Program-made: the position numbers and the translations under genes
The notes under the pieces: model-generated
Seen by the model: the letters and a program-made list of their open reading frames with translations, nothing else
Told to the model about the DNA's origin: nothing
Database searches by the model: none
In this document: positions 24,330 through 44,774 of the stretch, piece after piece
Numbering within the stretch: position 1 is the first letter of the stretch
How the letters are laid out: each line of letters starts with the position of its first letter
Assembly (NCBI GenBank): GCA_035505375.1
Contig: DATJQV010000033.1
Span: 1-48,133, forward strand
Source: a bacterium
GTDB lineage: Bacteria > Hydrothermota > Tepidihabitantia > Tepidihabitantales > Tepidihabitantaceae
Length of the DNA stretch: 48,133 nucleotides
Direction: 5' to 3'

Positions 24330-26246
24330 CTAGAAAGCCAGCAGCAGCAGTTCCGCGGCGAAGGCGAATGCTGCGAGCCAGAGCAACACCGGAGACAGGT
24401 CGGATGATTGGCGATTGGCGATCGGCGATTGGCGATCGGCGGAAACAGGCAGGACCTGATAGCCAAGCGTCTTGAGTGAATCTGCCGGGAAAGGCGACAG
24501 GTCGCCCTCGGCGGCAAGGACATTGACAGCATACGGCCGGTCGTCGACCAGATAGATGCCGGGTTGCTGGGTCCGGGTCAGCGCGATCTCGGCACGTCCG
24601 GCTCCCGGTTCGGGTGTCTGGCTCAAGCGACCAGCCGGCGTCGAAACCGTGACCGGACCCGAACCGCTGACCGGCGCGTGGATTGTATCTCCGACAAGAT
24701 ACTCGGCGCGCAGCGGTCCGCTGGTAAGGTAGAGCAGAGTCCGGTGGAGCAGCGGCACGAACGGAGCTTTGAACACGAGGTCGGTGAAGTCTGGCACGGC
24801 AGTGAACGCCCACAGGACGAGGCGGCCGTTCTCCGCATCCAACATCAGCGGCTCGCCATCCGATAGCCGCGCAAGAACCCGGGCCCCGGCCGGGTCCAAC
24901 CGGGCATGAGTGAAGAAACGCGCTGACGACAGGCCGGCAGCACCGATGATATCCATCACAGGATGGGTCGTGTCCACCGAGACAACCGAGACGAATCCGG
25001 CGGGTTGCGACAATCCGTGAAACCGGATGCGTCCGGCCAGCAGCGACGAATCCGCGGGAGCATTACCGAACATCACCAGGGCCGAGCCGCCGGACTGAAG
25101 GAAGAAGTCGAGCCGAGTCCAGTCGGGTCGGCTGAGCGCGGCAGCATCGGTGACGACGACTGCCCCGAACCGGCGCGGGTCGTAGCGGCCGAAATCGGTC
25201 GCGGCAACTGTGGTCAGACTGAAGACCGACGAAGAGTCCGCACCAAGCGCGTCGACCAGATACCGCGCCGGGGCGGCGGGCGATTCCACCACTAGCACCG
25301 AGATGCGCTGCGGCTGGTATGCCGCGAGCCAGCGCGTGTTGTCCGCTTCGAGCGAATCGCCGCGCAGTTCCACCTTCGCGACGTGATACCCGGAATCGGT
25401 GAGCGCGGTCTCAAAGGTCACGGTCGCGGACGAGTGCGGCTTGATGGCGACGGCCTGCTCCTCGTGGTGGTCACCGAGGGTCAGAACCGCGGTACGCGTT
25501 GCCGGGTGCGGGCCGTAGTTGGCGAAGTCAGCCTTGATGCGCGTCGCCCGGCCCGCGACCGGGAAACGTTCCTCGGTGTAGAGCCGGGTAACGCCCGCGT
25601 TGTCCGCATCCGGCGGAGCGACCGCGGCGAGCAGGACCGGTACGTCAGCCGGCGGTCGCCAGTTGGAGGGCATCGCGCGGGCCTGCAGGTCGGTAACGAC
25701 CGCGACATCAGCGTGTGCGGGCCGGGCGAACTCGACCGCACGCCTCAAAGCGGGCTCCAGTATCGCCGCGGAATAAGACGGCTTCAGCGAGTCAAGCACG
25801 GGCAGCAGCGTACCCGGCGTCTGCCACTGCAAACCGGAAACCGGCAACTGGTCACTCGCCCTGGCAAGCGCAGCCCGTCGCCCCGGCCCCAGCGAACCGA
25901 TGAGTTCCCGCGCTGCTGCAATCGCCCGCTGCCATTGCGGCCCCATGCTGTACGAGTCATCGAGCACGACAATCAGGTCGTTCGACCGGCCGAGTCCGGG
26001 CAGGCGGTGCCGGACATAGGGCCGGGCCAGCGCGAGCAGCAGCGCGAGCAGTGCGAGTGTGCGGAAGATAAGCAGCAGCAACTCCTTCAGCCGGAGCCAC
26101 GAGAACCGTTCGCGCCGGACGGTCGTGAGCAAGAGCAGCGACGGAAACTCAGCACGCCTGAGCCGCAGGCGACTGAGGATGTGAATGACGACAGGAATCG
26201 CGGCCAGCGCGGCGAGCGGCAAGAGAGAGGGCGCTGAGAAACCCAT
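24330..26246 (-). CDS. BatA-like membrane protein with von Willebrand A domain
   Basis: This 638-residue membrane protein starts with the aerotolerance-regulator/BatA N-terminal domain (LPLAALAAIPVVIHILSRLRLRR, then a second membrane helix). A von Willebrand A domain follows with an intact MIDAS start (VVLDDSYSMG). The rest is a long predicted extracytoplasmic part and a final membrane helix (LLWLAAFAFAAELLLLAF). It is encoded just after the DUF58 gene on the same strand, the usual pairing in MoxR/Bat-type loci, but no MoxR ATPase is seen in the window. A 7-nt cgattgg/cgatcgg patch (24404-24441) is translated in the linker before the last membrane helix. No good ribosome binding site precedes ATG 26246. 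Confidence 0.85.
   Translation of the reverse strand: MGFSAPSLLPLAALAAIPVVIHILSRLRLRRAEFPSLLLLTTVRRERFSWLRLKELLLLIFRTLALLALLLALARPYVRHRLPGLGRSNDLIVVLDDSYSMGPQWQRAIAAARELIGSLGPGRRAALARASDQLPVSGLQWQTPGTLLPVLDSLKPSYSAAILEPALRRAVEFARPAHADVAVVTDLQARAMPSNWRPPADVPVLLAAVAPPDADNAGVTRLYTEERFPVAGRATRIKADFANYGPHPATRTAVLTLGDHHEEQAVAIKPHSSATVTFETALTDSGYHVAKVELRGDSLEADNTRWLAAYQPQRISVLVVESPAAPARYLVDALGADSSSVFSLTTVAATDFGRYDPRRFGAVVVTDAAALSRPDWTRLDFFLQSGGSALVMFGNAPADSSLLAGRIRFHGLSQPAGFVSVVSVDTTHPVMDIIGAAGLSSARFFTHARLDPAGARVLARLSDGEPLMLDAENGRLVLWAFTAVPDFTDLVFKAPFVPLLHRTLLYLTSGPLRAEYLVGDTIHAPVSGSGPVTVSTPAGRLSQTPEPGAGRAEIALTRTQQPGIYLVDDRPYAVNVLAAEGDLSPFPADSLKTLGYQVLPVSADRQSPIANRQSSDLSPVLLWLAAFAFAAELLLLAF
24404..24441. 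repeat. In-frame cgattgg/cgatcgg 7-nt patch
   Basis: Units gattggc, gattggc, gatcggc, gattggc, gatcggc recur every 7 nt. On the coding (minus) strand they encode the linker peptide SADRQSPIANRQSS. Confidence 0.8.
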
Positions 26247-26252
26247 CAGCTA

Positions 26253-26373
26253 AGAAAGGACAAAGGACGAAGTGGTAGGGACAAAGCAACCCGGAAAGAG
26301 GAAAGGACAAAGGCGACCCGTCCGACTTTCACCGCTTTGTCCTTTCCTGCTTGCTTTGTCCTTTGTCCTTGAT
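26253..26373. repeat. aaaggac 7-nt patches with a 13-bp inverted repeat
   Basis: Units aaaggac, aaaggac and variants recur at about 7 nt. GGAAAGGACAAAG (26300-26312) and CTTTGTCCTTTCC (26335-26347) form an inverted repeat with a 22-nt loop. It lies in the 144-nt gap between the two minus-strand genes; an RNA hairpin there could affect coupling or processing. Confidence 0.7.
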
Positions 26374-26390
26374 ACTTCGTACTCTTCTCC

Positions 26391-27284
26391 CTACCGCATT
26401 CGGCTGCGTCTCTCCAGGTATGAGAACAGCGCTCGGTCGAACGGCGTGTCGGTCGTTACCCGGTGATAGTCAATCGCGGCCTCGCGGCAGCCGCGCTCGA
26501 ACGTGGCGAAGAACCGGTCGAAGTCCTTCTGATACTGCTCGCGCAGCACGCGTGGGTCAACGGTCAGTTCGCGGCCGGTCTCCATGTCCCTGAGCACGAC
26601 CGGGTTGCGGAACGCGAACTCGCGCTCGTTCGGGTCCTGGATGTGGAAGACCAGCACCTCGTGCTTCTTGTGCCGGAAGTGGCGCAGCGCGGTCAGCACG
26701 GCCTGCGGCTCATCCCACAAATCCGACATGATAATGACGAGGCCGCGGCGCTTCACCCGTTCGGCCAGTTGATGGAAGGTGCCGGCGATGTTCGTATCGC
26801 CGCCGGGCTTCACGGCCGCGAGTTGGCGCAGGAGCGCATTCAGATGAGCAGGCGTGCTGCGCGGCGGCACGTAGGTGTTTATCTTGTCCGAGAAGGTGAT
26901 GAGACCGGCCGAGTCTTTCTGGTGCAATAGCAGGTAGGCGAGGCTCGCGGCAAGGCAGTTTGCGTACTCGAGCTTGGTGACCTTCCCGGTCGTGTAGGCC
27001 ATCGAGCCCGACGCATCGAGGACGAGGTAGGCACGCAGGTTGGTCTCTTCCTCGTACTCGCGGATGACGAACCGGTCGGTCTTGGCGTAGACCTTCCAGT
27101 CAATCCGCTTCGGCTCGTCGCCGGGCATGTACGGCCGGTGCTCGGTGAACTCGACCGAGAAGCCCTTGTATGGAGAACGGTGCAGGCCGGCGAGGAAACC
27201 CTCGACCACCAGCCGCGCCTTCAGGTCGATGCCCTTCAGCTTGGCGACGACTTCGGGTTTCAGAAAGCGCGTGGTATCAGGCAC
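26391..27284 (-). CDS. DUF58 domain protein
   Basis: This 297-residue protein is a DUF58 family member, the usual partner of MoxR ATPases and BatA-type proteins. The family hallmark is present: a short basic N-terminus (KGIDLKARLVVEGFLAGLHRS), GFSVEFTEHRPYMPGDEPKRIDW, then a von Willebrand-like domain with DASGSM (MIDAS), TFSD and MSDLWD. Length matches the family. The GTG at 27284 is preceded by TAGACT 8 nt upstream and TTGCGG 16 bp further, so the transcript may be leaderless. It is followed by the BatA-like gene on the same strand. Role in envelope assembly is inferred from the family, not from this sequence. Confidence 0.92.
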   Translation of the reverse strand: MPDTTRFLKPEVVAKLKGIDLKARLVVEGFLAGLHRSPYKGFSVEFTEHRPYMPGDEPKRIDWKVYAKTDRFVIREYEEETNLRAYLVLDASGSMAYTTGKVTKLEYANCLAASLAYLLLHQKDSAGLITFSDKINTYVPPRSTPAHLNALLRQLAAVKPGGDTNIAGTFHQLAERVKRRGLVIIMSDLWDEPQAVLTALRHFRHKKHEVLVFHIQDPNEREFAFRNPVVLRDMETGRELTVDPRVLREQYQKDFDRFFATFERGCREAAIDYHRVTTDTPFDRALFSYLERRSRMR

Positions 27285-38662: not shown

Positions 38663-38690
38663 TTGACTAGGACCGCATCTGGTCTATACT
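38663..38690 (+). promoter_or_regulatory. Promoter of the BrxD-like operon (leaderless)
   Basis: TTGACT (38663-38668), a 16 bp spacer and TATACT (38685-38690). ATG 38700 begins 9 nt after the -10 box. It diverges from the pilB promoter. Confidence 0.75.
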
Positions 38691-38699
38691 CAAAGGCTT

Positions 38700-39542
38700 A
38701 TGGAAGGACTTGTTGAGCTGCTGCAGTCCCTGAGCCGTCAGTCGCAGAAGCTGGCCCGACAGCTTGTCACGTACCGGAGTCTCCTCGCCCAGCCGATGGA
38801 GAAAGTCCACGCTCGGGCCAGCGCTATCGCCGAGCTGGGTGCCGCTGTCCAGGCCTTCCCCGATGCCGAGGTCCGGCAGCGAATGCTCGACTGGCTCCGG
38901 GCGGAGTCGGAGGCGATTGAGCAGAGCCGGGCCGAATTCCGGTTCCAGTTCGGACGCCAACTGGTGTCCGGGCTTGAAGGATCCGGGATGGCGGTGAGCG
39001 GGCAACTGCCCCTGCTGCGGGTCGGGCTGTTCACTTTGCGGACCGACTTCGACGCGGGCACGGCGACCATCTACTGGGGACCGGAGATCGAGAAGTTGAA
39101 GTCCGGCATCGCGCTCGCCCCGACGGAACTGGCGGCGACGCTCCGGAAGTGGAACGACCGCCTGCGGCAGAAGTCGGTACCGCCCGACCGGCTGCTTTCA
39201 CTGTCGCATCGCGCGTATCAGCGGGTCTGCACTTTCAAGGGTCTGGGCGAGGGAACCCGGGTTTTCCTGCTCGACCTGCTGTCGGAGCTGGTCGTCCTGA
39301 TGCAGCCGGAGAGCTTCCGGCTGAACCCGGCGCGGGAGAAGTTCGTCGAGTATCCGCGTGTCCGGTTCAGCTACGACCTGTTCCGGTTGAAGCAGGCCGG
39401 CGCGTATGCGGTTGGTGAGGTGCAGTTGAAGCTGCACGTTGCCAACTTCGACGCCACGACCGAGAAGGCGAAGGCGCTCTGGGTTCCGGACAGCGAAGAG
39501 GGTGGCGGCACGCACTACTCCTACATTTCGTTCGGCAGGTAG
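38700..39542 (+). CDS. Unknown 280-residue protein, first gene of the ATPase/helicase operon
   Basis: I do not recognise this protein. The first ~85 residues look helical and coiled-coil-like, rich in Q, R, L and E (LQSLSRQSQKLARQL, ARASAIAELGAAVQAF). A strand-rich part follows (LPLLRVGLFTLRTDF, GTATIYWGPEIEKL), then a helical segment and a C-terminal strand (FDATTEKAKALWV). There is no signal peptide, membrane segment, Walker motif or nuclease motif I can see. It is separated from the next gene by one base and is read from a leaderless promoter, so it is a constant partner of the two ATPases here. It may bind DNA or scaffold them; this is a guess. Confidence 0.8.
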   Translation: MEGLVELLQSLSRQSQKLARQLVTYRSLLAQPMEKVHARASAIAELGAAVQAFPDAEVRQRMLDWLRAESEAIEQSRAEFRFQFGRQLVSGLEGSGMAVSGQLPLLRVGLFTLRTDFDAGTATIYWGPEIEKLKSGIALAPTELAATLRKWNDRLRQKSVPPDRLLSLSHRAYQRVCTFKGLGEGTRVFLLDLLSELVVLMQPESFRLNPAREKFVEYPRVRFSYDLFRLKQAGAYAVGEVQLKLHVANFDATTEKAKALWVPDSEEGGGTHYSYISFGR

Positions 39543-39543
39543 A

Positions 39544-40842
39544 ATGAGCGAAGAACGCGTCGCGACGCCGATGGAGAGACAACTGGCCCTGGCCATAGTG
39601 AACAAGCTCGGCTCGACCGGCACGCCGCCGGAGTTCGGCATCGAGCACTTCACGGTCGGGCTGGAGCCGTACCTGCGGGTGCTCGAAGATGAGTATCTCA
39701 ACGGTATCCTGAAGTTCAATCTGTCCAGTTTCAAGCTGATAACCGGCAACTACGGCGGCGGCAAGACTCACTTTCTGTACACGGTCCGGAATCTCGCGTT
39801 CCGGCACAACTACTGCGTCGCCTACGTCGGCCTCAATCCGACCGAGTGCCCGTTCGACAAGCTGGAGCTGGTCTACAAGAGCATCGCCGCCAACCTGATT
39901 GCGCCGCGGCCCGCCGACGCGCCGACCGCGGTCTGGGACAAAGGCATCGAATCCGTGGTCAGGAAGTGGCATGACGATCAGCGCAAGCTGCACGACCGGA
40001 CCGACAACCTGCGCAAGTACCTCGAGACCCTGCCGACTACCGAGAGCACGAGCTTCAGCAACGCCGCGCGGGGTGCATTCGCCAGCCTGCTGGCTGAGGA
40101 CGGCGAGGGGTTCAACGACGTCGTCCAGTGGCTCAAGGGGGAGGACGTATCCCGAGAAGTGCGGGCAATGCACCGGATCTCCGAACGGATCGACAAGGCG
40201 ACGGCGTTCCGCGTGCTCCGCTCGCTCATCCAGTGGGTGCATGCCATCGGCTACACCGGGCTGGTGCTGCTGTTCGACGAAGCCGAGCGCGGCATGTCCA
40301 TTTCCTCGTCGCGCGACAAGCGCCGGGCCCTGGACAACCTGCGGCAATTGGTGGACGAATGCGGCAACTCGCGACTGCCCGGGGCGATGGTTTTCTACGC
40401 CGTGCCGGACGAAAACCTGCTGCTTGAAGGTTCGGGCGGAGTCTACGAAGCACTGAAGCAGAGGCTGCGCACGACCCTCAACGAAACGAACCCGGTCGGC
40501 GTGCGCATCAACCTCGAGGATCTGGGAATCGAGCCGGCCGAGTTCCTCGGGCGCCTCGGCGAGCGGCTGGCCGTCCTGTTTGGCGACGCCTACGAGGTGC
40601 AGCTGCCCGAGGAGAAACGCGGCGCCATCGTGCGGACGCTGGCGGAGTTGGCCGCCTCAGCCTTCGCGTTCGACGTCGGGTACCGCCGGCTCTTTGTCGT
40701 CAGCGTGCTGGAGGCGTTCCATCAGCTTCGCGCCAAGCCGACGCTCGAGTTCGGCCGGAAGGAAGCGGAGAAGCTGCTGCGCGTGACCACCCAGCGCCTT
40801 GAGGTGGCCGACAAAGAGCAGGTCGAAAAGGAAGAGTTCTAG
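39544..40842 (+). CDS. BrxD-like P-loop ATPase (DUF2791 type)
   Basis: This 432-residue ATPase resembles BrxD-type (DUF2791) proteins of BREX systems. Walker A is GNYGGGKT (residues 68-75), followed by HFLYTVRNLAFRHNYCVAYV and the Cys/Pro strand NPTECPFDKLELVYKSIAANL. Walker B is LVLLFDEAE (residues 240-248). A later stretch of conserved NLRQLVDECGNSRLPGAMVF and YEALKQRLRT is AAA-like. BrxD is an ATP-driven subunit in BREX type 2-like loci, where it occurs with a helicase. ATG 39544 starts one base after the previous stop. Identification to the DUF2791 group is by eye; a profile search would confirm it. Confidence 0.8.
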   Translation: MSEERVATPMERQLALAIVNKLGSTGTPPEFGIEHFTVGLEPYLRVLEDEYLNGILKFNLSSFKLITGNYGGGKTHFLYTVRNLAFRHNYCVAYVGLNPTECPFDKLELVYKSIAANLIAPRPADAPTAVWDKGIESVVRKWHDDQRKLHDRTDNLRKYLETLPTTESTSFSNAARGAFASLLAEDGEGFNDVVQWLKGEDVSREVRAMHRISERIDKATAFRVLRSLIQWVHAIGYTGLVLLFDEAERGMSISSSRDKRRALDNLRQLVDECGNSRLPGAMVFYAVPDENLLLEGSGGVYEALKQRLRTTLNETNPVGVRINLEDLGIEPAEFLGRLGERLAVLFGDAYEVQLPEEKRGAIVRTLAELAASAFAFDVGYRRLFVVSVLEAFHQLRAKPTLEFGRKEAEKLLRVTTQRLEVADKEQVEKEEF

Positions 40843-40889
40843 GCGCGGCCGCAGTCGGAATCCAGAAAACGGAAGCTGAAGCCGCAGGC

Positions 40890-42245
40890 ATGACCGAACC
40901 GGTACGGGATCGCCGGCGCCGTCTGGTGTCGCACCCGGTGTTCGGCGAAGGGGAGATTCTAGACAGCCGCTGGCACGGGACCGAACTGCTGGTCCACTTC
41001 CAGAGCGGGTTGCGGCTGTGGCTCCCGACTCAGCGGGTGAGGCTGCTATCCAACATCGGCGATTTCGTCCCGGGCGAGGCGCAACCCGCGCTGGTCGAGA
41101 TCGACACCATCCAGGCGCGCCGGATGATCGAGGCTTTCCGGCTCGGGATCGTACCCCACCAGGACGTCGAATCATTCACCTTCGGTCGCGAGAAGCCCAT
41201 CGCCGTGCTGGACGCAGCCCTTGAGAGTCTCGCGCGCGGACAGGGCGACGTGTTCATGGTTGAGGGGGAGTACGGTTCGGGCAAGACCCACCTGCTGGAA
41301 TACGTGCATCACCGGGCGTTGGCTTCGGGGATGGCCACGAGCCTTGTCCAGTTCGACCCGGCCGAAGTGAGCCCCCACCGGCCGAAACGCGTTTACCGCG
41401 AAGTCGTGCACAACCTGCGTTACATCAAGGACGCGACCGAGCACGGGTTCCGCGACCTGTTGCGCAGCGGGACCGCGCTGGACATGGCGGACCATGTATT
41501 CCTCGGGCCGGTGCTGGCGAAGCTCGGCAGGATTGACGCCGGCCACCAACAGAGCGAGGTCTTCTGGCAGTGGATAGAGGGAGAGAGCACCAAGGAGTAC
41601 GCGACTGAACAGAAGAGCCCGTTCCGAGTCAAGGGCGGCCAGCGGATACCGGCGCTGTACGACTTCTCGACCGCCGCCGACCTGTACTGCAACATCCTCT
41701 CCGGCATGAGCTGGATGGCCCGGGAACTGGGGATGAAAGGGCTTGTGCTGCTGGTGGATGAGGCCGAAACGGTGACCCATCTCTGGGACATCATGTATCT
41801 TGCCAAGAGCGTGAACTTCATGGACGGACTGGTGCGGACCGCGCAGAACGACCCGGACTTGAAGCGCATCAACGACCGGATGGTCCATAACCAGGTGCGA
41901 CCGGTGCCGTACATCTACCGGGATCCGTCGCTGCTCCTCGTCTTCGCGACCACGCCCAGTCCCTATGACTACGCCTACATCAAGCTGGCGAACCGCATCA
42001 AGCACCGGGTCGAGCTCGAGCCCTTGGAGGACAAGGCGCTGCTCGACGCCTTCTCTACGATGGTGATGATCTACCGGCGGGCGTACCCGGATTTCACCAT
42101 CTCAGACCTGGACCAGAAGAGGCTGCTGCGCGAAGCCTCCCGCCGGAACATCGAAGGGGTACGCGCCTTCATCAAGTTCTCGGTCGAGGCGCTCGACGTG
42201 ACGCGGCTCCGGGCGCAGGGCGTGCTGCCCCAGAACAAAGACTGA
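40890..42245 (+). CDS. Second BrxD-like ATPase with N-terminal SH3-like domain
   Basis: This 451-residue ATPase has a Walker A GEYGSGKT (residues 126-133) followed by HLLEYVHHRALASGMATSLV and a BrxD-like DPAEVSPHRPKRVYREVVHNLR. Walker B is LVLLVDEAET (residues 286-292). Before the ATPase it has a ~45-residue domain (SHPVFGEGEILDSRWHGTEL) like the SH3/Tudor-type fold at the C-terminus of UvrD/PcrA helicases; the fold is inferred from the HPVFGEG pattern. The gene follows its neighbour by 47 nt. It differs in sequence from the preceding ATPase apart from the P-loop core, so two non-identical BrxD-like subunits act here. Confidence 0.8.
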   Translation: MTEPVRDRRRRLVSHPVFGEGEILDSRWHGTELLVHFQSGLRLWLPTQRVRLLSNIGDFVPGEAQPALVEIDTIQARRMIEAFRLGIVPHQDVESFTFGREKPIAVLDAALESLARGQGDVFMVEGEYGSGKTHLLEYVHHRALASGMATSLVQFDPAEVSPHRPKRVYREVVHNLRYIKDATEHGFRDLLRSGTALDMADHVFLGPVLAKLGRIDAGHQQSEVFWQWIEGESTKEYATEQKSPFRVKGGQRIPALYDFSTAADLYCNILSGMSWMARELGMKGLVLLVDEAETVTHLWDIMYLAKSVNFMDGLVRTAQNDPDLKRINDRMVHNQVRPVPYIYRDPSLLLVFATTPSPYDYAYIKLANRIKHRVELEPLEDKALLDAFSTMVMIYRRAYPDFTISDLDQKRLLREASRRNIEGVRAFIKFSVEALDVTRLRAQGVLPQNKD

Positions 42246-42267
42246 CACGGACGAACACGGACCGACA
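42246..42267. repeat. Dispersed cacggac phrase between two operon genes
   Basis: acacggac, gaacacggac and gaccgaca phrases, reverse complements of the gtgttcat/tcgtgt phrases near 4132-4193, fill the 22-nt gap before the helicase start. Confidence 0.45.
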
Positions 42268-44313
42268 GTGACTGAGCGCGAGATTCGCGCAGCCCTGAAG
42301 CGGACGTGGACGCCGTTCTTCTCACGCTTCGGCCGGCTGACCGAGGTCCAGGTCAAATCCATCCCGGTGATACTCGAAGGTCGGAACCTCGTGGTCATAT
42401 CGCCGGCCGCATCGGGCAAGACCGAAGCCGTGGTCGCGCCGGCGGTCGAGCGGCTGTTGCCGGACCGGCGTGACCGGTTCTCGATACTCTACGTGTCGCC
42501 AACCCGCGCCTTGGTCAACGATCTGTTTCGCCGGCTGTCCGAGCCGCTTCAATACCTTGAACTGGCGCTTGCCCGCAAGACCGGGGACCACCCGGCGATC
42601 GACGAGTCAAAGCTCCCTTTCATGCTGATTACTACTCCGGAGTCGTTCGATTCACTCCTTTGTCGCCATACCCGGATATTCAAAGAGCTATCGGCTGTGA
42701 TACTCGACGAACTGCATCTACTGGATAACACGCCGCGCGGAGACCAGTTGCGCGTGCTGCTCGAACGGCTGCGGCTGGTAAACGCCGGTATCCGGTACTA
42801 CGCCTTGTCGGCCACGATTGACGACCTCGACATCGGCTCGCGCTACTTTCCCGATCCGGTTGTGGTCCAGGTGCCGGGTCGTCGCGAGATAGATGAAGAT
42901 CTGATACCGATGGGCGATGGCTGGCCCGAGCGCGTGGTGGACGAACTGCGGAAGCGCGACTGCCGAAAGGTGCTCTGTTTCTTCAATGCCCGCTCGTACG
43001 CGGAGGAATACGCGAAGCTGCTCAACCGCCCGCCATTCACGAATCGGGTCTGGGTGCACCACGCCAGCCTTACCCGGGAGGCGCGGGAAGGCGTCGAGGC
43101 GACGATGAACCGGGAGAAGACCGGGCTGCTCTGCTGCACGTCCACACTCGAACTGGGAATCGACATCGGTGACATTGACGGCGTGGTGCTCGTGCGGCCG
43201 CCGTTCAATGTCTCGTCGCTGCTGCAGCGGATAGGGCGGGGCAATCGCCGGCGCCAGTCCAACCTGCAGGCGTTCGGGCTGTACCTGAATCCATGGGAGA
43301 AGTTCCTGTTTGAGACGATGTTTGAATGCGCCCGCGAGGGACGGCTGTACGAGAAGAGCTACACGCCGGCGCTGTCGGTGATACCGCAGCAGGTCTGCTC
43401 GTACCTGTTCCAGCGCCGGCGCATCGGTACAACCTGGGAATCGGTGCGGAAAGTCCTGCGGCCGCTTGCGGGCGGCGATGCGCCGATTGACCGGGCGTTC
43501 CGGCAGATGATCGACTCGGGTGAGGTCGTGGCGCAGCGGCCGGGAATCTACTTCAACGGCCCGACTACCGAGCAGCGGGTCGAAACCGGCAAGGTCCACT
43601 CAAACATTCAGGACAAGACTTTCGGCACCTACGACGTGCACGACATCACGACCGGCCGGCAAATCGGCGCGGTCTTCTTCGTATTCCATCACTTCGTACT
43701 GGCCGGACGCTCGTGGGAGCTGGTCGAGCATCGCGAGAAAGAGAAGAAGATAATGGTGCGGCCGCTGGCCGCGGTTTCGTCCAACACGAAGGTCTTCGAA
43801 GGGACGGGAACCGGCGGCTATTCGTACCGACTCGCGCCGGTGCTGAAGGCGCGGCTCTTCCCGGCCCTCGCGCCGAACCAGTTTCCCTACTTCCGGGACG
43901 GCAACCAACTGCTGTTCGTACACCTTCTGGGCTCGACCTACGGCTACATCCTGTCCGAGGCGCTGAGCGCGCAGGGCCGGGACACGAGCGACATGGACGG
44001 CAAGCTCTTCGTTCTTTCCGGCAGCAAGCCCGAAGCGAAACCGAAGACATTCCCGGCCCCCAGCCTGTCAGCGGTCCGGGACGTGGTCAGCGGGAGCCTG
44101 TTTCGGCTGGAGGACAGCCTTGGCTCCGGGGCGTTCTTCCGTTCTCTGCCCGAGGAGTTGCAGATTGAGGACCACCTCCTGACGCTCGATGTCCGCGGCC
44201 TGCTCGAGTTCCTCAAAGGACTGGAGCCGGTGGAGTTGCCGGCGGAGGAAGTGACCGCGCAGATGAGGCGGCACCTGGGCGGCAATGCCCAATTGCCAAT
44301 TCCCAGTTCCTAA
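42268..44313 (+). CDS. Lhr-type DEAD/DEAH-box helicase (BrxHI-like)
   Basis: This 681-residue protein is an SF2 helicase close to Lhr/BrxHI. Motif I is SPAASGKTEA (near residues 45-54), Ia YVSPTRALVND, II ILDELHLLD (residues 144-153), III SATIDDL, IV CFFNARSYAEEY, V STLELGIDIGDIDGVV and VI QRIGRGNRR (near residues 320-328). After the helicase core is a ~350-residue C-terminal part. GTG 42268 follows a short gap with no clean ribosome site. In BREX type 2-like loci BrxHI accompanies BrxD; here it follows two BrxD-like ATPases. Its 3' end runs into a 7-nt cccaatt patch, which encodes the last residues (GGNAQLPIPSS). Confidence 0.88.
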   Translation: MTEREIRAALKRTWTPFFSRFGRLTEVQVKSIPVILEGRNLVVISPAASGKTEAVVAPAVERLLPDRRDRFSILYVSPTRALVNDLFRRLSEPLQYLELALARKTGDHPAIDESKLPFMLITTPESFDSLLCRHTRIFKELSAVILDELHLLDNTPRGDQLRVLLERLRLVNAGIRYYALSATIDDLDIGSRYFPDPVVVQVPGRREIDEDLIPMGDGWPERVVDELRKRDCRKVLCFFNARSYAEEYAKLLNRPPFTNRVWVHHASLTREAREGVEATMNREKTGLLCCTSTLELGIDIGDIDGVVLVRPPFNVSSLLQRIGRGNRRRQSNLQAFGLYLNPWEKFLFETMFECAREGRLYEKSYTPALSVIPQQVCSYLFQRRRIGTTWESVRKVLRPLAGGDAPIDRAFRQMIDSGEVVAQRPGIYFNGPTTEQRVETGKVHSNIQDKTFGTYDVHDITTGRQIGAVFFVFHHFVLAGRSWELVEHREKEKKIMVRPLAAVSSNTKVFEGTGTGGYSYRLAPVLKARLFPALAPNQFPYFRDGNQLLFVHLLGSTYGYILSEALSAQGRDTSDMDGKLFVLSGSKPEAKPKTFPAPSLSAVRDVVSGSLFRLEDSLGSGAFFRSLPEELQIEDHLLTLDVRGLLEFLKGLEPVELPAEEVTAQMRRHLGGNAQLPIPSS

Positions 44314-44333: not shown

Positions 44334-44774
44334 ATGGCCGGGGACGGCTTGATTCACGGCGGCATGGCGCTAGAATCCGCAACTGTGAATGGGCCGAAAC
44401 CGAAGACCGCACGGTTTGACCTCGAAGAGCGAACCGCGAAGTTCGGCTCCGACATCATACGTTTTGCGAAAACCATCCCCGACACACCGGTAGCGCGGCC
44501 GCTGGTCTCGCAACTGGTACGGGCCGCGACCAGCGTCGGTGCCAACTACTGTGAAGCGGACGATGCGGAATCTCGAAAGGACTTCCTGCACAAGTTGGGA
44601 ATCTGCAGGAAGGAGGCGCACGAGACCAAGCACTGGCTGAGGATGGTCGTGGTTGCTGCTCCTGAGCTTCGGGCAGAGGGCCGCGCGCTCTGGCGGGAAG
44701 CACGCGAACTGAACCTCATCTTCAACGCCATCATTCGGAACACTCGCGCGAAATCAGCCGATGACGCCGAGTAG
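44334..44774 (+). CDS. Four-helix-bundle protein (S23 / 23S rRNA intervening-sequence type)
   Basis: This 146-residue protein matches the S23/four-helix-bundle family first found encoded in 23S rRNA intervening sequences. The family pattern is visible from residue ~35: KFGSDIIRFAKTIPDTPVARPLVSQLVRAATSVGANYCEAD, then ESRKDFLHKLGICRKEAHETKHWL. The start is uncertain: GAGGAG is only 2 nt from ATG 44334, and ATG 44364 would also keep the family core. No rRNA gene is nearby, so this is a stand-alone copy; such genes are common as mobile-looking singletons in uncultivated bacteria, and their role is unknown. It is bracketed by inverted 7-nt patches. Confidence 0.85.
   Translation: MAGDGLIHGGMALESATVNGPKPKTARFDLEERTAKFGSDIIRFAKTIPDTPVARPLVSQLVRAATSVGANYCEADDAESRKDFLHKLGICRKEAHETKHWLRMVVVAAPELRAEGRALWREARELNLIFNAIIRNTRAKSADDAE

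Follow-up and report, generated by a model that had tools for sequence, protein, structure and literature searches.

A conserved four-gene operon of BrxD-like ATPases and a BrxHI-related helicase in candidate division WOR-3, with a possible role in genome maintenance

We analyzed a 48,133-nucleotide stretch of DNA (contig DATJQV010000033.1 of assembly GCA_035505375.1; hereafter, the window) from a metagenome-assembled genome of WOR-3 (Caldifarciminota/Stahlbacteria), almost all of whose closest named relatives in GTDB bear the label candidate division WOR-3. Calling of open reading frames (ORFs) in the window placed four genes, P1 to P4, on one strand at positions 38700-44313, with intergenic gaps of 1, 47, and 22 nt. 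P1 (38700..39542, + strand, as for all four genes) encodes the hallmark protein of the set, a 280-residue member of a new family. P2 (39544..40842, ATG start at 39544) encodes a BrxD-like AAA+ ATPase of 432 residues with the Walker A sequence GNYGGGKT (residues 68-75, 39745..39768), an invariant core in the alignment, and the Walker B sequence LLFDEAE. P3 (40890..42245) encodes a second BrxD-like AAA+ ATPase of 451 residues that carries the Walker A sequence GEYGSGKT (residues 126-133, 41265..41288) and has an N-terminal Tudor-like barrel. P4 (42268..44313) encodes a 681-residue superfamily 2 (SF2) helicase of the BrxHI/SngC group, with motif II DELH (residues 147-150, 42706..42717; Asp147, Glu148, and His150 are invariant in the alignment) and motif VI QRIGRGNRR (residues 320-328, 43225..43251; nearly every position invariant). 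The genes, their spacing, and the Walker A, DELH, and QRIGRGNRR motifs had been listed in an earlier note made from the sequence, and all are present. The set is a new four-component variant in the superfamily that includes BrxD, BrxHI, and Shango. The literature searched holds no description of a P1-P2-P3-P4 module, although many subscription papers were outside reach and novelty is unproven.

On the basis of their matches to Pfam profile PF10923 (BrxC_BrxD; 152 bits for P2 and 96 bits for P3) and their intact motifs, P2 and P3 are ORC/Cdc6-like AAA+ proteins of the BrxC/BrxD group. Walker A and Walker B are intact in both, unlike in a typical pair of one active and one dead ATPase. PADLOC models likewise assign both proteins to BrxD/SngB, P2 scoring 133 bits with BrxD and 72 bits with SngB. 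An AlphaFold2 (AF2) model of P3 was obtained at a predicted local distance difference test (pLDDT) score of 83, and the structures matched by its AAA+ core include those of Orc1/Cdc6 proteins (2qby and 2v1u). P4 contains the Pfam domains DEAD and Helicase_C together with SF2 motifs, which makes it an SF2 helicase of Ski2/Lhr-like type, and it scores 220 bits with the PADLOC model for BrxHI and 207 bits with that for SngC; it falls short of the NCBIfam ligase-associated helicase cut-off (192 versus 850 bits). The kinship to BrxD and BrxHI proposed in the earlier note is thus borne out by PF10923 and the PADLOC profiles, and the ATPases do not belong to an unrelated housekeeping family, but that proposal missed Shango (SngABC), which is related just as closely to the ATPase-helicase part.

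No Pfam or NCBIfam match was obtained for P1. The protein consists of long N-terminal helices, a central beta-sheet bearing the pattern GQxPxLRxGxFT..DF..G.A..FGPEIEK, and a conserved C-terminus, VATFDAT.DK..LW.P.NE.GEGT.YSYISF. Its AF2 model is confident (pLDDT 90.5), and comparison with the PDB and with viral models gave no fold match at E<=0.001; provisionally, the model may represent a new fold. We dropped the idea that P1 is an enzyme because there was no fold match and no clear catalytic set among the invariant residues.

The relation of the operon to known systems was examined by tree building and profile alignment; the helicase and ATPase trees are both unrooted, and several of their rows are long-branched. 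A branch with 100/100 support separates the P4 proteins, whether from WOR-3, other genomes, or plasmids, from BrxHI (100/99) and SngC (100/98), which lie together on its other side. In the ATPase tree, all 16 P3 proteins share the same side of a 95/91 branch and P2 falls with BrxD and SngB; both P2 and P3 are outside the BrxD clade, and SngB and SngC form clades of their own. By this placement, P3 is a second ATPase lineage without a counterpart in BREX or Shango. An enriched P1 profile built from WOR-3 and other genomes aligned with the plasmid P1 proteins in hhalign at a probability of 97.5% and a score of 85, compared with a maximum of 21.9 among 40 column-shuffled decoys, whereas its alignment with four SngA proteins reached a probability of only 0.2% and P1 gave no match to Pfam TerB. 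P1 matches the plasmid P1 proteins and not SngA, which makes P1 the hallmark common to these loci and sets the operon apart from Shango. Judged from these sequence relationships, loci with a P1-family protein, one BrxD-like ATPase of each lineage (P2 and P3), and a helicase of the P4 clade in order can be recognized as one system.

These data bear directly on the possibility that the locus is a BREX-2 or Shango locus in reduced or split form, with its missing components supplied in trans. The kinship of P2-P4 to BrxD/BrxHI and SngB/SngC is what such a remnant would display, but P4 lies outside the group formed by BrxHI and SngC, P3 has no counterpart in either system, and P2 and P3 (131 and 97 bits) both miss the 350-bit cut-off of the NCBIfam BrxD model (BREX_BrxD, NF033438). 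P2 and P3 are also the only PF10923 proteins in the window genome, and its sole PglZ-domain protein (G000:C62:1796-3304, L099) is a response regulator-PglZ protein, an architecture known from the type IX secretion regulator PorX and not from BREX. PglZ domains are almost universal across the phylum, mostly as single PorX-sized proteins of ∼500 residues, which presents a pitfall when BREX is called by PglZ alone. Of the components that mark a BREX type 2 locus (the PglX methyltransferase, the PglZ phosphatase/nuclease, the BrxC/PglY ATPase, and usually PglW), the operon flanks contain none, with PglX and PglW sought at the locus and not genome-wide. No nuclease is adjacent, and the four-gene module itself includes no nuclease, methylase, or toxin. 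A reduced BREX-2 locus was ruled out by the absence of PglX and PglZ from the locus, the PorX-like size of most WOR-3 PglZ proteins, and the response regulator-PglZ composition of the one in the window genome, and a Shango locus with a divergent SngA was ruled out by the P1-SngA alignment; the reading as a whole is largely refuted, and we consider it the least probable of those examined here. The stand-alone character that the earlier note had ascribed to the operon is therefore upheld.

To define the distribution of the operon, 147 genomes of the phylum were surveyed; most are metagenome assemblies, and in some cases a missing gene or a split locus may be artefactual. P1, P2, P3, and P4 were found in 58, 58, 63, and 56 of these genomes, respectively, and nearly always in single copy. 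All four genes occur in 49 genomes, and 60 of the 63 WOR-3 genomes holding any of them have at least three. The partial sets derive mostly from fragmented assemblies, as in the case of a P3 gene located at base 5 of its contig (G109). The P1-P2-P3-P4 order is kept in nearly every locus of sufficient length among the 30 GTDB loci with a P3 relative, and the pairwise co-occurrence of the four genes yields Fisher p values of 1e-25 to 1e-35 when kinship is ignored. The set is present, in full or in part and nearly always in one copy, in every genome of at least 90% completeness from families f1-f5, f9, and f10. The suggestion of an undescribed, conserved module in the earlier note is thus sustained by a gene order that recurs in dozens of genomes. 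Linkage is not universal. The helicase gene is separated from the rest in f3, and in G103 (a member of f5) and in f37 the P1, P2-P3, and P4 genes reside at separate sites on separate contigs, yet they still co-occur; the five f37 genomes agree on this separation. The persistence of the unlinked genes indicates that they are retained together and not merely transferred together.

The genes also follow the inheritance of their hosts. Identity among P1 proteins follows that of GyrB (Pearson 0.93, Spearman 0.77, n=54), and the P4 proteins from families f1-f5 and f10 group in a single clade (100/100) with a branching order that matches the taxonomy. Relative to a sister species, P1 had a ratio of nonsynonymous to synonymous substitution rates (dN/dS) of 0.18, and the ratios of P2-P4 were 0.08-0.09; in comparison to a different species, P3 and P4 gave 0.07-0.11, and the neighboring gene pulE gave 0.11. 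The operon genes are under purifying selection and evolve no faster than housekeeping genes, with P1 somewhat faster. The surroundings are ordinary as well: the window operon is accompanied by genes for a RecF/SMC-N protein, GyrB, an M42 peptidase, PulE/F, and a glycosyltransferase, and the f10 operons by genes for a gingipain-type peptidase, MgtE, a symporter, and an ABC transporter. In WOR-3 the genes lie among such chromosomal neighbors without defence genes nearby, even where they are unlinked. Single-copy, near-universal, vertically inherited genes of this kind have the traits of core genes in the WOR-3 lineages that hold them. The DNA-maintenance role that the earlier note had offered as an alternative fits the inheritance, rate, and neighborhood better than the defence role it had put forward, for which this copy offers no support.

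The N-terminal domain of P3 provides a possible clue to function. In the AF2 model, DSSP assigns five strands to residues 11-53 (40920..41048; VSHPVFGEGEILDSRW...VHFQSGLRLWLP), forming a Tudor/SH3-like barrel. When a sub-profile of these residues was compared to the PDB, the first matches were C-terminal Tudor chains of UvrD/PcrA (7egt, E 0.0025; 7egs, 6yi2, and 4c2t), a weak similarity, and in a test with Pfam PF21196 no P3 member exceeded the cut-off (best E 0.097, also weak). Most P3 proteins possess this domain; both plasmid P3 proteins and that of G263 lack it. The Tudor domain of PcrA binds RNA polymerase (PMC5397179, PMC8318588). Tudor-bearing PcrA is present in 2 of 63 operon-positive and 24 of 84 operon-negative WOR-3 genomes, as read from match ends and with kinship ignored (Fisher p 4e-5 by genome and 0.08 by family), a suggestive anticorrelation in which Tudor-bearing PcrA/UvrD is found mostly where the operon is not. 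The operon-positive f9/f10 genomes encode a PcrA of ∼645 residues without Tudor, and f1-f3 have mostly a diverged PcrA or weak matches. The operon as a strict replacement of PcrA/UvrD was not upheld, given the PcrA without Tudor in f9/f10, and replacement of Mfd was ruled out by strong Mfd-profile matches in nearly all WOR-3 genomes, the weakest of which are RecG-sized.

ORC/Cdc6 loaders can be heteromeric. In our reading, the paralogous ATPases P2 and P3 would most likely form a mixed oligomer that loads or activates P4 on DNA or on an RNA-DNA hybrid, by analogy with such heteromeric loaders and with the proposal that BrxD is an ORC/Cdc6-type ATPase that may load BrxHI (PMC12839542). The presence of two distinct ATPases is consistent with the hetero-oligomeric loader that the earlier note envisaged, the complex itself being suggested by this analogy. 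P1 would serve as a non-enzymatic adaptor or scaffold, and the Tudor-like domain of P3 would dock the machine on a partner, for which RNA polymerase is the first candidate. Such targeting would suit a task in WOR-3 like the clearing of transcription-replication conflicts or of repair intermediates on transcribed DNA. We infer that the operon encodes a four-protein helicase machine for chromosomal genome maintenance in WOR-3 rather than for dedicated phage defence, an account to which we give about an even chance.

An RNA-directed machine was also considered, in which P4 would remodel RNA or a ribonucleoprotein, perhaps in a process coupled to transcription, and the AAA+ pair would act as the remodeller. 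The best sequence matches of P4 among solved structures include the RNA-acting SF2 proteins Slh1 and Brr2, and the Tudor-like domain of P3 resembles one that binds RNA polymerase. The same search returned Lhr-type DNA helicases (5v9x, 7lhl), however, and the nearest family relatives (BrxHI, SngC, and the Lhr type) are described as DNA-acting, with AAA+ partners here of the ORC/Cdc6 type. We regard this explanation as quite improbable.

Several observations weigh against a maintenance role. The set is absent from f6-f8, which belong to the same class, and from more than half of the phylum, so bacteria in general can do without it, and a fixed, old defence system could give equal conservation. 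The P4 proteins of f21, f27, f35, and f37 are interspersed with those of other phyla in the helicase tree, and second, divergent copies of the operon occur in genomes that already have one (G075:C72, L101; G282:C59, L123); the second copies and the mixing of distant WOR-3 with other phyla point to some horizontal transfer. By its sequence, the second G075 copy groups with f21, a sign of transfer or of contamination. BREX-2 and Shango, to which P2-P4 are closest among characterized systems, both act in defence, Shango having been tested against phages (PMC10250203), and work on Hachiman has placed SngC and BrxHI in a helicase clade defined by antiphage function (PMC12278908). Two plasmids of other phyla carry the operon among defence genes: on plasmid3 of Aulosira laxa NIES-50 (L097:1-10296) it follows directly behind BREX-2 genes for a PglZ-like protein (alkaline phosphatase-domain), BrxD, and BrxHI, and on pDESTI.01 of Desulfomonile tiedjei it is near AbiE toxin-antitoxin genes. 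The Tudor-UvrD similarity, finally, is weak.

Beyond the phylum, a search of 390 genomes with the P1 profile gave seven outside matches, and in all seven (G204, G282, G189, G233, G264, G263, and G347) the genes are ordered P1-P2-P3-P4. One of these genomes, G282, has two loci, with the P4 gene of the second running past the contig end; in G204, a 5 Mb single-contig genome that is alone in its class, the operon is near gyrA and a GyrB-like ORF. In G263 (L128:5811-10696), the P4-like helicase is fused to an SF1 helicase with AAA_11/AAA_12 domains (∼1,600 residues in all), with motif I of P4 upstream of the called start. The segment between the two resembles, by eye, a PD-(D/E)XK/Cas4-type nuclease; Pfam supports the helicases and not the nuclease. 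This fusion may be an effector-bearing form of the system. On the Aulosira plasmid, two BrxHI-type helicases and three BrxD-type ATPases stand in tandem. A tblastn search of a phage collection with P3 yielded no match, and a scan of viral contigs with the plasmid P3 was unproductive.

An alternative is a dedicated antiphage system, in which a loader-helicase complex would, like Shango or BREX-2, sense or unwind invading DNA and which WOR-3 would have retained for long as core defence. The identity of the closest homologues (BrxD, SngB, BrxHI, and SngC), the two plasmid settings, and the helicase fusion with its possible nuclease-like segment all speak for it. The vertical, near-universal, single-copy retention in WOR-3 at a housekeeping-like rate and away from defence genes, the survival of unlinked genes in f37 and G103, the lack of a nuclease, methylase, or toxin in the module, and the failure of P3 to match the phage collection speak against it. 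We consider antiphage defence possible but doubtful for the system at large and a plausible role for the mobile relatives, since the plasmid type, which is without the targeting domain and sits among defence genes, would suit such use; the Tudor-minus versions that travel on plasmids probably serve defence. Nearness to known defence systems, which the earlier note had proposed to check, is seen for the two plasmid copies and not for the WOR-3 loci. For the window copy, we judge genome maintenance somewhat likelier than defence.

Should the operon encode a maintenance machine, it would represent, on the chromosome, a core relative of the ATPase and helicase portions of both BREX-2 and Shango, and the direction of origin, housekeeping or antiphage, would become testable. 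A bolder reading, which we hold less likely than not, is that the four proteins form an unrecognized class of cellular helicase-loader machine, a core genome-maintenance complex across entire lineages of bacteria that may be docked on RNA polymerase by the P3 Tudor domain. Housekeeping machines of this kind could then have given rise to the BrxD-BrxHI and SngB-SngC modules of antiphage systems, or have arisen by domestication of such modules. Should the mobile versions prove protective against phages, they would constitute a new defence system, not listed as such in PADLOC 2.0.0. Either reading adds the P1 family, with its confident model and no known fold match, and P3 as a second BrxD-like ATPase lineage, and provides a natural two-ATPase loader for the study of how BrxHI-type helicases are used.

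A promoter-like TTGACT-16-TATACT sequence (38663..38690, + strand) lies directly 5' of P1, and a divergent promoter-like site for pulE is located on the opposite strand (38609-38580); both come from a consensus scan only, which found four such sites in the region versus 0.8 expected. Between P4 and the glycosyltransferase gene, positions 44334-44774 encode a four-helix-bundle protein of the 23S rRNA-intervening-sequence family, a placement seen only in its own genus. Genes with Pfam matches to BatA and DUF58 are present at 24330-27284, ∼12 kb upstream of the operon, and BatA/DUF58-looking genes, recognized by eye, directly adjoin the second operon copy of G282 (L123:4652-7621).

Comparison with known systems places the operon nearest to two defence systems and, in single components, to Lhr-type helicases and the PcrA/UvrD Tudor domain. 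With Lhr-type helicases, P4 shares the SF2 core, but it is shorter and is encoded with AAA+ partners. The N-terminus of P3 (V.H..FG.G..V...V.F), a five-stranded barrel in the model, weakly resembles the Tudor domain of PcrA/UvrD in sequence (E 0.0025), although that domain is C-terminal on an SF1 helicase and the P3 domain is N-terminal on an ATPase. Shango is likewise a compact operon of a first protein, a BrxD-like ATPase, and a BrxHI-like helicase, and its SngB and SngC models match P2 and P4; SngA, however, is a TerB_N/TerB_C protein and P1 is not, Shango has one ATPase, and P2, P3, and P4 are outside the SngB and SngC clades. As a separate observation, immediately behind a Shango locus on a Sulfitobacter faviae plasmid (L132:6015-8433) lies a gene for a PD-(D/E)XK nuclease protein, which may serve Shango as an effector partner. 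The BrxD-BrxHI dyad of BREX type 2 has an ORC/Cdc6-like ATPase beside an SF2 Ski2/Lhr-like helicase in the identical gene order, whereas the operon described here stands at its locus without PglX, PglZ, PglW, or PglY, pairs two ATPases in place of one, adds P1, places its helicase outside the BrxHI clade (100/100), bears a Tudor-like domain on P3, and is inherited vertically in the chromosomes of WOR-3.

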